A DNA stretch of 64,000 nucleotides from an uncultured Clostridium sp. (GTDB lineage: Bacteria; Bacillota; Clostridia; Lachnospirales; Lachnospiraceae): positions 1-64,000 of the forward strand of contig CANRZB010000010.1 of assembly GCA_947644195.1 (NCBI GenBank), given 5' to 3'. Under the pieces are notes generated by a model. The model saw only the letters and a list, made by a program, of their open reading frames with translations, made no database searches and was not told the origin of the DNA. The first letter of the stretch is position 1. Each line of letters begins with the position of its first letter. Both the position numbers and the translations under genes were made by a program. Positions 1,893-48,254 of this stretch are shown piece by piece.

Positions 1893-4022
1893 ATGAAACA
1901 TAAATTTAATAGAAGATCAAAAAAAAGATTTTCTCGGGTTTTTCTTATAACGATGTTCCTTTGTGTAGCAATTTTGTTATGTTTCATGTTAGTAGCAAGG
2001 GAAATTAGGAACAGGGAAATGAGAAAAAATCCAGAACAGATTTTACAGCAAAGTTTGCTTGTTTATATGAATTATATTTCTGAGCAAAGATATGATGACA
2101 TGTATGAAATGTTGACTGAGGGAAGCAGAAAAACCATTAGTAAGAAAGAGTTTGTAAGCCGAAATTCTGCAATCTATAAAGGAATGGAAATGGAAAATAT
2201 GATTGTAGATATTACTGGATATGATCAGGAAAAGTTAACGGTGAAGTACAATACCTCTTTTGATACCGTTGCAGGAAATATCAACTTTGAAAATGAAGCA
2301 AGTTTTTGGGAGGAAGATGGTGCCTACAAAATAATATGGAATGATTCTATGATTTTTCCAGAACTACGTTCCCAGGATAAGGTCAGAGTTTCTACCGTTC
2401 CGGCAGAGAGAGGGGAACTATTAGATCGAAATGGACGGGTGCTTGCGGGAAAGGGATTGGCGTCTTCGGTTGGAATCATTCCAGGTAAGCTGGGAAACCC
2501 AAAAAAGGCAATAAAAAGGATTGCAAAACTACTGGGAATGAAATCAAAAGAAATAGAAAAAGAATTATCTGCAAAGTGGGTGCGGGATGATTCTTTGGTG
2601 CCAATAAAAACGCTTCCCAAAGTACGAGAAACAGATTTGCGTGTTGCCAATCCGGATAAAGAGGTGTTAAAAGAACAGGATCGCCAGGATAAATTATTAC
2701 ATATAGCAGGCGTTATGATTTCCGATACGGAAATTCGAGAGTACCCCATGAAAGAGGCGGCTGCCCATTTGATTGGCTACGTACAGAATGTGACGGCAGA
2801 GGATTTGGAGGAACATGCAGGTGAGGGATATACAAGCAGTAGTGTCATAGGAAAGACCGGGATGGAAGGACTGTTTGAAAAGGAGTTAAAAGGAAGAAAT
2901 GGGTGCAGAATCTATATTATCAATGCAGAAGGGAAAGAAACAGAAGAATTAGGCTGTATTCCTGTGCAAAATGGCAAAGATATTAAACTGACAATTGATG
3001 CGGATCTTCAATCCTGGCTGTACGATAGTTTCAAAACGGACAAAAGCTGCTCGGTTTCTATCAACCCTTTTACGGGAGAAGTATTAGCGTTAGTCAGTAC
3101 CCCATCCTATGATAATAATGCTTTTATCATGGGGATGTCCGGGAAACAGTGGAAGTTATTAAATGAGGATGATAAGAAACCTCTATATAACCGTTTTCGG
3201 CAGGTATGGTGCCCCGGCTCCAGCTTCAAGCCGATCACAGCAGCGATTGGACTACAGTCCGGGGCAATTGACCCGATGGAAGATTTTGGAGGGGAAGGAC
3301 ATAGCTGGCAAAAGGACAAGTCGTGGGGAACATATCATGTTACGACGCTTCACACCTATCAGCCGGTAATCTTAGAAAATGCATTGATTTATTCGGATAA
3401 TATTTATTTTGCAAAAGCAGCTTTGAAAATTGGCTCGGAAGAAATGGAACGGGCTTTATCCGAAATGGGCTTCCCTGGGGAACTGCCATTTGAAATAAAA
3501 ATGGGAAAATCCAGTTATTCCAATACGGAGCATATAGAGAGCGAGATACAACTAGCGGATAGTGGGTACGGTCAGGGACAAATTTTAGTCAATCCATTGC
3601 ATTTGGCATGTATTTATACTTCCTTTTGCAATCAAGGCAATATGATCAAACCTTATCTGCTCTATCAGGAGGATGCAAAAGCGAATAAATGGATATCCGG
3701 TGCGTTTTCCCAAGAGGTGGCAAAAAGAGTGTTAGATGGAATAACAAAAGTAGTAAATCAGCCGCATGGCACGGGATATGCAATACATCGGAAAGATGTT
3801 CTCTTGGCGGGAAAGACAGGAACGGCAGAAATAAAAGACTCAAAAGAAGATACCTCTGGAACGGAATTAGGATGGTTTACTGTTTTAACTCCCGATAGAA
3901 AGGAGAAGAAGGCAATTCTGGTGGTAAGTATGGTGGAAGATGTCAAGGAACGCGGAGGAAGTGGCTACGTTATCAGAAAAGACAAACCTGTTTTAGAAAA
4001 ATGGTTTCGTGAAGATCCGTGA
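1893..4022 (+). CDS. Penicillin-binding protein with MecA_N/NTF2-like N-terminal domain
   Basis: N-terminal TM, NTF2-like region, transpeptidase motifs SSFK, SDN, KTGT. Confidence 0.88.
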   Translation: MKHKFNRRSKKRFSRVFLITMFLCVAILLCFMLVAREIRNREMRKNPEQILQQSLLVYMNYISEQRYDDMYEMLTEGSRKTISKKEFVSRNSAIYKGMEMENMIVDITGYDQEKLTVKYNTSFDTVAGNINFENEASFWEEDGAYKIIWNDSMIFPELRSQDKVRVSTVPAERGELLDRNGRVLAGKGLASSVGIIPGKLGNPKKAIKRIAKLLGMKSKEIEKELSAKWVRDDSLVPIKTLPKVRETDLRVANPDKEVLKEQDRQDKLLHIAGVMISDTEIREYPMKEAAAHLIGYVQNVTAEDLEEHAGEGYTSSSVIGKTGMEGLFEKELKGRNGCRIYIINAEGKETEELGCIPVQNGKDIKLTIDADLQSWLYDSFKTDKSCSVSINPFTGEVLALVSTPSYDNNAFIMGMSGKQWKLLNEDDKKPLYNRFRQVWCPGSSFKPITAAIGLQSGAIDPMEDFGGEGHSWQKDKSWGTYHVTTLHTYQPVILENALIYSDNIYFAKAALKIGSEEMERALSEMGFPGELPFEIKMGKSSYSNTEHIESEIQLADSGYGQGQILVNPLHLACIYTSFCNQGNMIKPYLLYQEDAKANKWISGAFSQEVAKRVLDGITKVVNQPHGTGYAIHRKDVLLAGKTGTAEIKDSKEDTSGTELGWFTVLTPDRKEKKAILVVSMVEDVKERGGSGYVIRKDKPVLEKWFREDP

Positions 4023-4063
4023 CAAAAAAGGGACAGGTCCAGGAAGGGAGGTTTCGAATTATT

Positions 4064-5377
4064 ATGAAGCGTTTGGCTTTTTGTATGATTATATGCAGTA
4101 TGATTTTTTGTTCCTGCACAAAAGAAGAGAAAAGAACGGAAAGGAAAAAAGAGCCAGAAAAGGAAGTAATAGAAGAAAAAGCAGAAAATACAGTGAAAAA
4201 TACAATAGATAATGCAATAGAAAATGCAATAGAAAATACCTTGGAAGATACAGAGCAGCCTATAGTAATGGAATCTGAGATGGAAAAAGGTTATGATCTT
4301 CCGATATCAGATCAGGACAGGAACGAAGCGGAACAGGAATCCGACGGGATCATGGGGCTGCTTACGGATATTTATAAACATGCAGAGAAAGGAAACTCTT
4401 CTAATGTTGTTTTGCATAGTAAAGTTATGGAGAAAATGACGAGGATCATCAAGAAACAGGGTTATCCGGTCATCCGTTCCGAGAGATACTCTAATATGGA
4501 AAATTATCAAAAAGTGGAACGGTTTTTATCAGATGCAGCATTAGGAAAGAAAAGCGCTATTGTTATTTATAGAGTACATACAGATGGCGGGATTGGCAGA
4601 GAAAAATATGTTTATGATGGCAAAGATATGTACCTTTTGGCGTCAAACATGATCTGGGACGATGATGATAAGCCCTGCATGTCATTTATATCCTATACAA
4701 GAATAAAAGAATGGAGGTATTCGAAGCGGGGATGGTTTTGTTATGAATTGTGCGTGCCGGAGTATCCAGAAGTGACGGAAATGGTAGATGGGTGTTGCTT
4801 AATCCGTATCAAGCCAAGGAGCGGAAAGAAACGCAGGCTTTCAAAACAATGTGTCCAGGGTTTGGGATATCAGGGAAATAATCTCTTATGTTCTAATTGG
4901 GATGAGAATCATATGGAAAAGTTAGATTATAATGGATTATATGAGTATTTTTATGAAATGAAATATAAGAAAAAATATAATAGTAAAAAATATTCGAATG
5001 GGATACCAAAAGATTCATTTGAAAGTCTGATGATGGAATATCTTGCTGTCACTCCTGAGATGATACAGAAGTACGCAGTATTTGATAAAAAGAAGGGAAC
5101 CTATCTGTGGCAAAGGTTAGGATGTTTTAATTATGCCCCGGATTATTTTGGAACATCCATTCCAGAAGTGACCAGGATACAGGAAAACTCGGATGGAACA
5201 ATGACCCTGACGGTAGATGCCGTATGTGAAATGGTACTGTGTGATGAGGCAGTTATTACGCATGAATTAACGGTACGATTTGCAGAAGATGGCAGTTTTC
5301 GGTATTTAGGCAATAAAATTTTGGATGAAGGCATGAAAGAAATCCCTCCGTATCAGCACCGACTGGAAGATCAATAA
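4064..5377 (+). CDS. Lipoprotein of unknown function
   Basis: ATG at 4064 after AGGAAGGGAGG; signal peptide MKRLAFCMIICSMIFCSC with lipobox Cys. Confidence 0.75.
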   Translation: MKRLAFCMIICSMIFCSCTKEEKRTERKKEPEKEVIEEKAENTVKNTIDNAIENAIENTLEDTEQPIVMESEMEKGYDLPISDQDRNEAEQESDGIMGLLTDIYKHAEKGNSSNVVLHSKVMEKMTRIIKKQGYPVIRSERYSNMENYQKVERFLSDAALGKKSAIVIYRVHTDGGIGREKYVYDGKDMYLLASNMIWDDDDKPCMSFISYTRIKEWRYSKRGWFCYELCVPEYPEVTEMVDGCCLIRIKPRSGKKRRLSKQCVQGLGYQGNNLLCSNWDENHMEKLDYNGLYEYFYEMKYKKKYNSKKYSNGIPKDSFESLMMEYLAVTPEMIQKYAVFDKKKGTYLWQRLGCFNYAPDYFGTSIPEVTRIQENSDGTMTLTVDAVCEMVLCDEAVITHELTVRFAEDGSFRYLGNKILDEGMKEIPPYQHRLEDQ

Positions 5378-37558: not shown

Positions 37559-37584
37559 TGATGGAAGATTATATGTTAATATAA

Positions 37585-37738
37585 AAAGAGAGTAACTGGA
37601 TTGGAGTGTATTCGCTCCCTTGAAAAAGGGCACTAACATCACAATATATACGAGTTGTTCGCAGGTAAGGCGTTTGCTCACAACTCGAATATATTGTGAA
37701 TTTTTGCAAGGTATTGATATTAAGCAGTTACTCTCTTT
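37585..37738 (+). ncRNA. Retron msr-msd RNA
   Basis: Perfect 14-bp a1/a2 pair AAAGAGAGTAACTG (37585-37598) / CAGTTACTCTCTTT (37725-37738); msr hairpin GGAGTG-TATT-CGCTCC (37603-37618); msd stem TCACAATATATaCGAGTTGT / ACAACTCGaATATATTGTGA (37639-37699). Confidence 0.88.
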
Positions 37739-37754
37739 GAATGAGGAATTTGAA

Positions 37755-38747
37755 ATGGATAAAACCGTTTATTTACATAGGTTAAAAGTAAATATGCAGG
37801 GCAAATATGAATCTGAGTATATTGACAGATGCGTTTTTTATGCAGAAAGTCTATTGGATCGAAATCTGCCTGTAATATTTGATATGAACCATATATATGC
37901 TATATTACAGCTGGGGTGTATCAATTTAGATTGGTATAACGATTTTGGAATCAAGCGGAGGAATGGAACGGTTCGAATTATTTCTGCACCGAGTCGGCCG
38001 CTAAAATATCGACAGCGATGGATCTTAGATGAAATTTTATCTAAGATAGAAATAATGCCCTGCTGTGAGGGATTTACGAAAGGACATTCTATTGTTACTA
38101 ATGCAAGCAAGCATATTGGCTATGCTGAGACTCTGACGGTAGACATGAAGGACTTTTTCCCTAGTATAAAGGAGAAACAGATTGTTGATGTGTTTCGGGA
38201 AGTTGGTTATACGCAGGAAGTAGCCGTAACTTTATCTAGTCTATGTTGCCATGAGGGATGTCTGCCACAGGGAGCGCCTACCAGCCCGCAATTATCCAAT
38301 ATTATCTGCAAATCATTAGATAGGGATCTTATAGAGTTTTCGAAAAAATATGGTTTGGTTTATAGCAGATACGCAGATGACTTAACCTTTTCAGGTAATC
38401 AGGATTTAAATTGTACTGTTTCTCAAATAAAAGGAATCATACAAAATCATGGGTTTAGAATCAATGACAGAAAGACGAGATTATATACTGGAAAATACAG
38501 AAGAATTGTAACAGGTCTTATCGTTACGGAACATGGATTACGTGTTCCTCGTGAATATAAGAGAAAATTAAGGCAAGAAATATATTATTGTAAGAAATTT
38601 GGAGTAACGCAACATTTAAAGAATACGAATTCTTCTAAAGTAGTTAATTTTAAAGAATTCTTGTATGGAAAAGCATATTATATTAAAATGGTTGAACCAA
38701 AGACGGGGAAAAAGTTTTTGGAACAATTAGATGAAATAGAATGGTAA
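37755..38747 (+). CDS. Retron reverse transcriptase
   Basis: YSRYADDLTFSG catalytic motif, retron-type NAxxH (VTNASKH) and VTG (RRIVTGLIV); start set to ATG 37755, 16 nt after a2. Confidence 0.9.
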   Translation: MDKTVYLHRLKVNMQGKYESEYIDRCVFYAESLLDRNLPVIFDMNHIYAILQLGCINLDWYNDFGIKRRNGTVRIISAPSRPLKYRQRWILDEILSKIEIMPCCEGFTKGHSIVTNASKHIGYAETLTVDMKDFFPSIKEKQIVDVFREVGYTQEVAVTLSSLCCHEGCLPQGAPTSPQLSNIICKSLDRDLIEFSKKYGLVYSRYADDLTFSGNQDLNCTVSQIKGIIQNHGFRINDRKTRLYTGKYRRIVTGLIVTEHGLRVPREYKRKLRQEIYYCKKFGVTQHLKNTNSSKVVNFKEFLYGKAYYIKMVEPKTGKKFLEQLDEIEW

Positions 38748-38803: not shown

Positions 38804-40066
38804 TCAAACCGTGTGATCTAGATACAGGATAATGTCAGCTTTGAATACCCCATTTTCTGTACGGAAGCTGGATTCGCCGTGATATTTTTCAATTACGGAA
38901 TGAATATTTTTGAAGCCGTAGCCGTGTATCTTCTGATCCTTTTTGGTTGTCTGGAAATAATTATTTTGTCTGCAGAGGGTTCCCTGGAAGGTATTGTAAA
39001 TGCTGATATAAAGAATGTTTCTGTCAAATTTCATTGCAATATTTAGATATTTGTGATCACATTGGGTGGTTGCTTCAATCGCGTTGGTAAGGAGATTGCT
39101 GATTAAGATATTTAGATCCAGGGCAGACATGAAAGTTTCGGATGGGATTTTAATAGAAGTATGAATTTCACAATTCATTTGATGGGCGAGTTCAAGCAGG
39201 TAATTTAACACGCAGTCGGTTTCTTCGTTACCAGAGTGGACATAGGTATTCATTGTGTTATGTGTCTGGGTAATGTCTTTGATATACTGTATGGCTGATT
39301 CGATTTTGTTGGATTCCAGATAGGTTTGAACTAATAACAGATGATTTTTCAGATCATGCCGTAGGGAGCGAAGATCTTCCTGGGATTGCTGCATGATCTG
39401 AAATTGATTTTGGTACATGATAACCCGTTGTTCCAGTGTTTTATTCTCAACTTCCCGTTGCTGCATCACACTCAACCGGGAATACATCAGCAGGGTTAGA
39501 ATATTGATGAGGTAGATTACGGATACACAGATACATAGCGTAATAGGGGAGATCATCGTTACTGAAATTAGGATTCCGCATAGTGCGATGCTGCTTAGAG
39601 CAATGAAAATAATTTGGAAGTTGTAGACCGTACGGGGTGTCTCAGAACGTTCATAATCAAAAATGTGTTCCCAGATAAGAATCAGCGCGAGCGTCAGAAC
39701 ACAGGGGAGGAAAGGACAATAGATTTCATTTCTGGGAAGCAGGTCGGAATAACGATGCAGATACCATACAACACCTTGTGTGATGCCGGTTAAGCCAATC
39801 GAAATGGAGATAACAGACAGGCATTTTACGACAGTGGTCTCAAATTGATACATAGTAAAGAGAAACAACAGGAAAAAGAAGAGGATCATAAAAATTTTTC
39901 TGTTTTGAATTATGGAATGGGAGAGCCAGCTTGCAGAAGCCAGGATGCCGTAAAAGGGCAGGACAGAGAGGGGATTCCGTTCTTTTTTCGTTAAAAATAT
40001 TCTGATTATCCTTATATTTAAATACACATATAATAAATGAATGAAATAAGAAAATAGTGTATCCAT
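38804..40066 (-). CDS. GHKL (AgrC-like) sensor histidine kinase
   Basis: Six or so TM segments, LRHDLKNHLLLVQTYLES, HATPase_c_5-like C-terminus. Confidence 0.85.
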   Translation of the reverse strand: MDTLFSYFIHLLYVYLNIRIIRIFLTKKERNPLSVLPFYGILASASWLSHSIIQNRKIFMILFFFLLFLFTMYQFETTVVKCLSVISISIGLTGITQGVVWYLHRYSDLLPRNEIYCPFLPCVLTLALILIWEHIFDYERSETPRTVYNFQIIFIALSSIALCGILISVTMISPITLCICVSVIYLINILTLLMYSRLSVMQQREVENKTLEQRVIMYQNQFQIMQQSQEDLRSLRHDLKNHLLLVQTYLESNKIESAIQYIKDITQTHNTMNTYVHSGNEETDCVLNYLLELAHQMNCEIHTSIKIPSETFMSALDLNILISNLLTNAIEATTQCDHKYLNIAMKFDRNILYISIYNTFQGTLCRQNNYFQTTKKDQKIHGYGFKNIHSVIEKYHGESSFRTENGVFKADIILYLDHTV

Positions 40067-40090
40067 AGTCCTTTTCCTCCGAAATCGTTT

Positions 40091-40810
40091 CTAGCGGTTT
40101 TCTATCTGTTTTTTCATGATGAACTCTTTGACGGATTGCCGCCTGGCTTGGCTGATCGGTATGCGGCAGGAATTCATCATGATTAGTTCGTTTGCCTTAT
40201 ATACGTTTATATAATTGATGTTGACGATATAGGATTTATGTACAAGGATGAATATATTGCTATTTAGCTGCTCCATACAATCGGATAATTTTCCATAGTG
40301 TTGATATTCCCGTTCCGTCGTAAAGATCGTAATAATTTTTCCGGTGCTCTGCATACAGACGATGTTTCTTTGGTCGATACGATAGAAGGTTTTATTGATA
40401 CGATATTCATAGAATGACCGAAGATGAATGAACAGGGAGCAGTAGGTATCAATTACCCTGGAAATCTCTTCATAGGAAATGGGCTTGATGAGAAAATCCA
40501 AAGGCCGTATTCTGAATAACTGCATGGCGTAATCATTTCGAATAGATACAAATACAATCTGCGTACTTTCGTTTGCTATATTCTGGCGTAGCTCTTTGCC
40601 AACGGTAATTCCGTCTGTAGTTTGTAATTCAATATCCAGAAAGAGCAAATCCAAGGAATCTCCGCTATGCCAATGTTCTAATAATTCTTCTCCTGAACTG
40701 AAAATCACAGTTTCGATTTCCCAATGTATTTTTTCGCAATAATCAAGAATCATACTCTCCGTTTCCCAGCAAAATAATTCGTTGTCATCACAAATACCAA
40801 TTGTGTACAT
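40091..40810 (-). CDS. LytTR-family (AgrA-like) response regulator
   Basis: MYTIGICDDNELFCWE receiver, C-terminal LytTR; RBS AAAGGATGG. Confidence 0.88.
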   Translation of the reverse strand: MYTIGICDDNELFCWETESMILDYCEKIHWEIETVIFSSGEELLEHWHSGDSLDLLFLDIELQTTDGITVGKELRQNIANESTQIVFVSIRNDYAMQLFRIRPLDFLIKPISYEEISRVIDTYCSLFIHLRSFYEYRINKTFYRIDQRNIVCMQSTGKIITIFTTEREYQHYGKLSDCMEQLNSNIFILVHKSYIVNINYINVYKANELIMMNSCRIPISQARRQSVKEFIMKKQIENR

Positions 40811-41014
40811 GATGTCATCCATCCTTTCGTATATCATATAGAATATAGTTTTCGGGATAATAATGCAAGTGCTATCCATCAGGTTTTTTGCGGGGATTTT
40901 TGGGAAAAATATATTGCAAGGACACCATTGTAGTGTATTGAGTTACAATAGTAATTTTGGGGAAGATTTCAATAATTTCTATAGATGTTAGAATAATAGA
41001 AATGAGGTGTGATT

Positions 41015-48156: not shown

Positions 48157-48254
48157 ACTCTTATTCAGAGTGGTGGAGAGTGAAGGCTCTGTGAAACCAC
48201 GGCAACCCCATTGCGGAAGGTGCCAATCTCAGCGAGGAATCGATCAATAAGAGG
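48157..48254 (+). ncRNA. SAM-I (S-box) riboswitch aptamer
   Basis: P1 CTCTTATT/AATAAGAG; cores CAGAGTGGTGGAG, GTGAAACCACGGCAACC, GGTGCCAA. Confidence 0.95.

Follow-up and report, generated by a model that had tools for sequence, protein, structure and literature searches.

A compact msr-msd RNA predicted in a type III-A retron operon from a Lachnospiraceae-like lineage

We propose that positions 37585-37738 of the window (the whole stretch of DNA analyzed here, 64 kb) encode the msr-msd noncoding RNA of a complete type III-A retron, made up of a phosphoribosyltransferase-like (PRTase-like) effector, a winged-helix (wHTH) protein, the RNA and a reverse transcriptase (RT), and that this retron works as outlined below; we give this reading a probability of about 0.88. 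Retrons are bacterial antiviral alarm systems whose enzyme makes a DNA copy of part of an RNA. The locus is clearly a new example of a known retron type and not a new kind of system. The first-pass annotation had delineated the RNA from the sequence, and its reading as an msr-msd RNA is supported by its place in a complete type III-A operon, where it immediately precedes an intact retron RT (Table 1).

Operon, proteins and genomic setting

The order of the genes, with the RNA between winged helix and RT, is that of type III-A retrons. None of the three reading frames is interrupted, and each retains its motifs; 27 bases separate the stop of the winged-helix gene from the start of the a1 arm of the RNA.

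The RT carries the retron motifs NAxxH (as NASKH), YADD and VTG, all of them invariant among four relatives (alignment A1). Its best five PADLOC models are all RT_III-A, with the next type about 150 bits below the best, and by these model scores the RT is assigned to the III-A clade. Pfam returned RVT_1 and PRTase-CE for the operon, and the solved structures closest to the RT are retron RTs, that of Ec86 first (phmmer, 7.5e-47 to 7v9x_A). NCBIfam also gave weak RT matches to Drt2 and Drt3a, as might be seen if the RT came from another defense class (DRT/UG or Abi) and the inverted repeat upstream of it were incidental. We find such an origin exceedingly improbable, given that the retron III-A models score hundreds of bits higher and that the retron motifs, the covarying RNA and the nearest solved structures all point to a retron RT.

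The PRTase-like gene matches PADLOC PRTase_III-A (4e-50) and Pfam PRTase-CE (7e-29), and the PRPP loop of its product, IIFVDDIIATG, is intact. The structure model (pLDDT 87) matches the fold of uracil and other type I PRTases, with a best E value of 2.5e-5 and low TM-scores. Among the RT loci that were fetched, there were 36 PRTase ORF matches. The winged-helix gene matches PADLOC WH_III-A (6e-5), and its model has the topology HHH-EE-H (pLDDT 87). The third fold match of this model, among many winged helices, is the effector chain of retron Ec86 (7v9x_C, E 3.6e-3), a resemblance that is weak evidence because the winged helix is a common fold. Several III-A relatives encode PRTase and winged helix as a single protein. 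A conserved C-terminal tail of the wHTH protein, [YF][ILV]PxxF (YIPxxF) or a near version of it, is present in 23 of the 27 loci compared (the window and 26 relatives), both in free proteins and as the C terminus of PRTase-wHTH fusions. Possibly, this tail is a docking peptide.

The GC content of the operon is 27-36%, compared to roughly 40-50% farther out on both sides, and the 27 further genomes of the genus that were examined yielded no III-A-like RT; together, these fit horizontal gain. A more distant RT, of 32-33% identity, is present in 4 of the 27. In an empty-site comparison, the matching contig of a sister genome (G1485) ends at the junction. Beside the retron, at 38804-40879, lies an agr-like pair made up of a GHKL-domain sensor kinase and a LytTR response regulator. 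An Rfam search of the whole window returned only a SAM riboswitch at 48158-48253 (73.8 bits), with no match at 37585-37738.

Structure and conservation of the RNA

The a1 and a2 arms are exact reverse complements at precisely the positions first assigned to them. The window has no second perfect inverted repeat that is 14 bp or longer and spans no more than 300 nt; by chance, as judged from dinucleotide shuffling of the window, 0.12 such repeats are expected on average. The region 37575-37748 folds to -58.8 kcal/mol, whereas shuffled sequences reach -33.7 +/- 3.7 (z -6.9), and none of 200 folds as well. The 19-bp msd stem with one A-A mismatch, also described at the outset, is present as 11 bp (37639-37649/37689-37699) and 8 bp (37651-37658/37680-37687) around the mismatch at 37650/37688. 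Past a 2x2 loop, the stem has an extra 5-bp tip (37661-37665/37673-37677) that the first-pass annotation missed. Of the two short msr hairpins that had been described, the first is conserved, with compensation. The two share positions 37617-37618, so that only one can be complete, and the second has a pair broken in the closest relative, L006.

Table 1. Features of the retron locus, in window coordinates
Feature	Position	Strand	Basis or remark
PRTase-like effector, 335 aa	36274..37281	+	First gene of the operon
Winged-helix (wHTH) protein, 97 aa	37265..37558	+	Start overlaps end of PRTase gene
a1 arm of msr-msd RNA, AAAGAGAGTAACTG	37585..37598	+	Exact complement of a2; covaries with a2
Predicted 2′-5′ priming (branching) G	37599	+	First base after a1; G in 20/20 loci; rule per PMC6868368
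msr hairpin GGAGUG-UAUU-CGCUCC	37603..37618	+	Type III-A GUGnAnUCGC hairpin; 2 compensated pairs in L006; found by model R1
Second short msr hairpin CCCUU-GAAA-AAGGG, weakly supported	37617..37630	+	MFE fold; 1 pair broken in L006
Conserved single-stranded CACUAACA between msr and msd	37631..37638	+	Same in L006 and L007; ACUAA kept in L095
msd hairpin: 11 bp, A-A mismatch, 8 bp, 2x2 loop, 5-bp tip	37639..37699	+	Fold; compensated pairs in L006
msd 3′ spacer, where reverse transcription likely begins	37700..37724	+	Position between hairpin and a2; by inference from validated retrons (PMC6868368)
a2 arm of msr-msd RNA, CAGTTACTCTCTTT	37725..37738	+	Exact complement of a1; covaries with a1
GAGGA ribosome-binding site of RT gene	37743..37747	+	Sequence; 7 bases 5′ of ATG
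Retron RT, 330 aa, intact	37755..38747	+	PADLOC RT_III-A 6e-128

A lack of covariation had been named beforehand as the finding that would speak against this RNA; the comparison was run, and both a1/a2 and the msd stem covary. The set of relatives comprised about 100 loci with related RTs. A contig scan that used one RT sequence alone gave no relative, a profile scan recovered them, and further close relatives were not found in the class and phylum genome samples. For 38 loci, the best stem between a locus's own upstream and RT-proximal stretches was compared to those formed with the RT-proximal stretches of the other 37, a test that is free of alignment bias. The mean stem score was 29.1 for own and 18.2 (SD 2.6) for foreign partners, and the own a2 beat every foreign partner in 25 of the 38 loci; the p-value of 6e-20 is only descriptive, since the comparisons are non-independent. 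Some relatives (L038, L044, and L078) did not stand out; their arms were probably missed by the fixed test windows. In the 20 loci read in register, the nine a1/a2 pairs closest to the priming G are standard without exception, and pairs 4 to 9 show four or five pair types per position. Because the register of these 20 loci was chosen via pairing, it is the own-versus-cross test that provides independent evidence.

L006 has an RT 59% identical to that of the window. Between the two RNAs, 37 pairs are identical, 8 carry double-sided and 2 single-sided changes, and 2 are broken. We also built a covariance model (R1) from the 5′ half of the RNA in seven other retrons, leaving out the window and L006; its source retrons adjoin III-A-like RTs, and a PRTase gene was found in 6 of the 7. 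The best match of R1 in the 64-kb window is at 37595-37638 (19.6 bits, E 0.009), with the next at E 3.1. The RNA is also carried by L098. L095, from the same order as the host and with an RT 51% identical, has the same layout, with a compact RNA (AAAAGAGCAACTA-G...TAGTTGCTCTTTTT) and a perfect 24-bp msd hairpin.

The a1 stem of validated retrons includes the priming G or ends right before it, and UAGC is the commonest context (PMC6868368). The branching G had been placed at or next to 37598-37599. G37598 is the last paired base of a1, and with the help of the relatives the predicted priming base is thus narrowed to G37599. Of the 20 loci, 18 have UA as the last two bases of a1, with G next. 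The window and L006 have UG there, again with G next, and their a2 starts with C in place of U, so that the closing A-U pair has been turned into G-C. The priming context in the window is CUG-G (UGGA), compared to the usual UA-G.

Other arrangements were seen among the relatives. L105, from the same family, encodes a fusion of winged helix and RT (3836-5017) that leaves no room for the RNA between them; the RNA is relocated upstream of the PRTase gene (2670-2793), with a1/a2 arms AAGCAGCTA/TAGCTGCTT and the usual GCGAGUCGC hairpin. In four Bacteroidota III-A loci (L041, L048, L010, and L030), the a1 arm reaches into the end of the PRTase-wHTH gene and the a2 arm into the beginning of the RT gene, so that the same bases serve both coding and RNA pairing. 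L103 (OR844994.1), deposited as a wastewater Staphylococcus phage, has a III-A RT with a complete a1/a2 RNA; this record is unverified, and contamination is possible.

The RNA of the window lies directly 5′ of the RT start codon, with a2 ending 4 bases before the ribosome-binding site, and such a position would also suit a cis-regulatory hairpin or terminator that governs RT expression and does not serve as a template for reverse transcription. However, no terminator-like site is called at the RNA, and the msr hairpin, the priming G and a1/a2 are common to retron loci across phyla; in L105, moreover, the same RNA stands before the PRTase gene. We consider a purely regulatory role very unlikely.

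Decay is a further concern, and it does happen to III-A retrons, as the L003/L106 genome indicates: there (1-2130), a lone III-A RT, 52% identical, sits near the contig start with no PRTase and no recognizable RNA beside it, and an ORF upstream of the RT may be part of an insertion sequence. The retron of the window might likewise be decayed or silent, its parts recognizable and no msDNA made in the host. The three open genes with their motifs kept, and the perfect 14-bp a1/a2 helix with its compensated changes, argue against this, and we regard it as unlikely.

Proposed mechanism and significance

For a working type III-A retron, we imagine that the transcript would fold via a1/a2 pairing and that the RT would bind the msr hairpin and prime from the 2′-OH of G37599. 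The spacer and msd hairpin would then be copied by the RT into a branched RNA-DNA molecule (msDNA). The template between msr and a2 does not exceed about 94 nt, and the msDNA length of 70 to 90 nt predicted earlier is plausible. Priming at G37599, the msDNA and the RT-msDNA complex are proposed here by analogy with validated retrons. The RT-msDNA complex would keep the PRTase effector inactive, probably docked via the winged-helix protein; phage interference with the msDNA or the RT might release the effector, which could then poison the infected cell through its PRPP site. Docking by the winged helix, the phage trigger, and the chemistry and target of the PRTase are the most tentative parts of this scheme.

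One can also envision that the window, L006, L095, and L105 make up a distinct Lachnospiraceae-like subgroup of III-A, marked by a compact msd of one hairpin and by a movable RNA, which in L105 would serve the winged-helix-RT fusion from in front of the operon. We offer this as a tentative suggestion, with the odds against it. If true, it would mean that the RNA need not adjoin the RT and that the winged helix physically links the RT-msDNA to the PRTase effector.

Type III-A is a widespread retron type. The mode of action of PRTase effectors has been called unknown (PMC9122126), and a May 2026 paper names them among the effectors yet to be characterized (PMC13158370). The interest of the present locus lies in its clean anatomy together with this open effector question, and not in a new system. 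Being compact and delineated in full, with only one msd hairpin and its priming base named, it is open to direct synthesis and testing, and its msd is a candidate template for DNA production in cells. The covariation set provides a basis for a type III-A RNA model, Rfam being without one at this locus. The relocated RNA of L105 and the YIPxxF tail may inform more than the window itself.

Comparison with known systems

The retron types were reportedly defined by Mestre et al. in 2020. The PADLOC type III-A models for RT, PRTase, and WH all match the operon of the window, and its order of PRTase and winged helix, noncoding RNA and RT is shared with the type III-A retrons Retron-Bpu1 (Bacillus pumilus) and Retron-Ppe1 (PMC12548924). 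The window has the priming context CUG-G and not UA-G, and its host is from a different, Lachnospiraceae-like lineage. Compared to type III-A retrons of Bacillus, the RT of one Bacillus relative (L009) is only 40% identical to that of the window, and the window has one msd hairpin, whereas the Bacillus relatives have two. Retron-Bpu1 yields RT-DNA in E. coli and gave no defense against 12 phages tested, so that type III-A defense was not demonstrated there; Retron-Ppe1 was not transformable into E. coli, and the authors took this as a sign of toxicity (PMC12548924).

The type II-A retron Ec86 (Retron-Eco1) has an RT homologous to that of the window, and its effector chain has a winged-helix part that the wHTH model of the window weakly resembles. 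The catalytic part of the Ec86 effector is a nucleoside deoxyribosyltransferase, whereas the effector in the window is a PRTase, with the wHTH as a separate gene. The DprA-PRTase anti-phage system of P2-like phages (PMC9122126), which, unlike the retron of the window, is without an RT and without msDNA, can be likened to it by arrangement, in that a PRTase-like effector stands beside a single-stranded-DNA binding partner.
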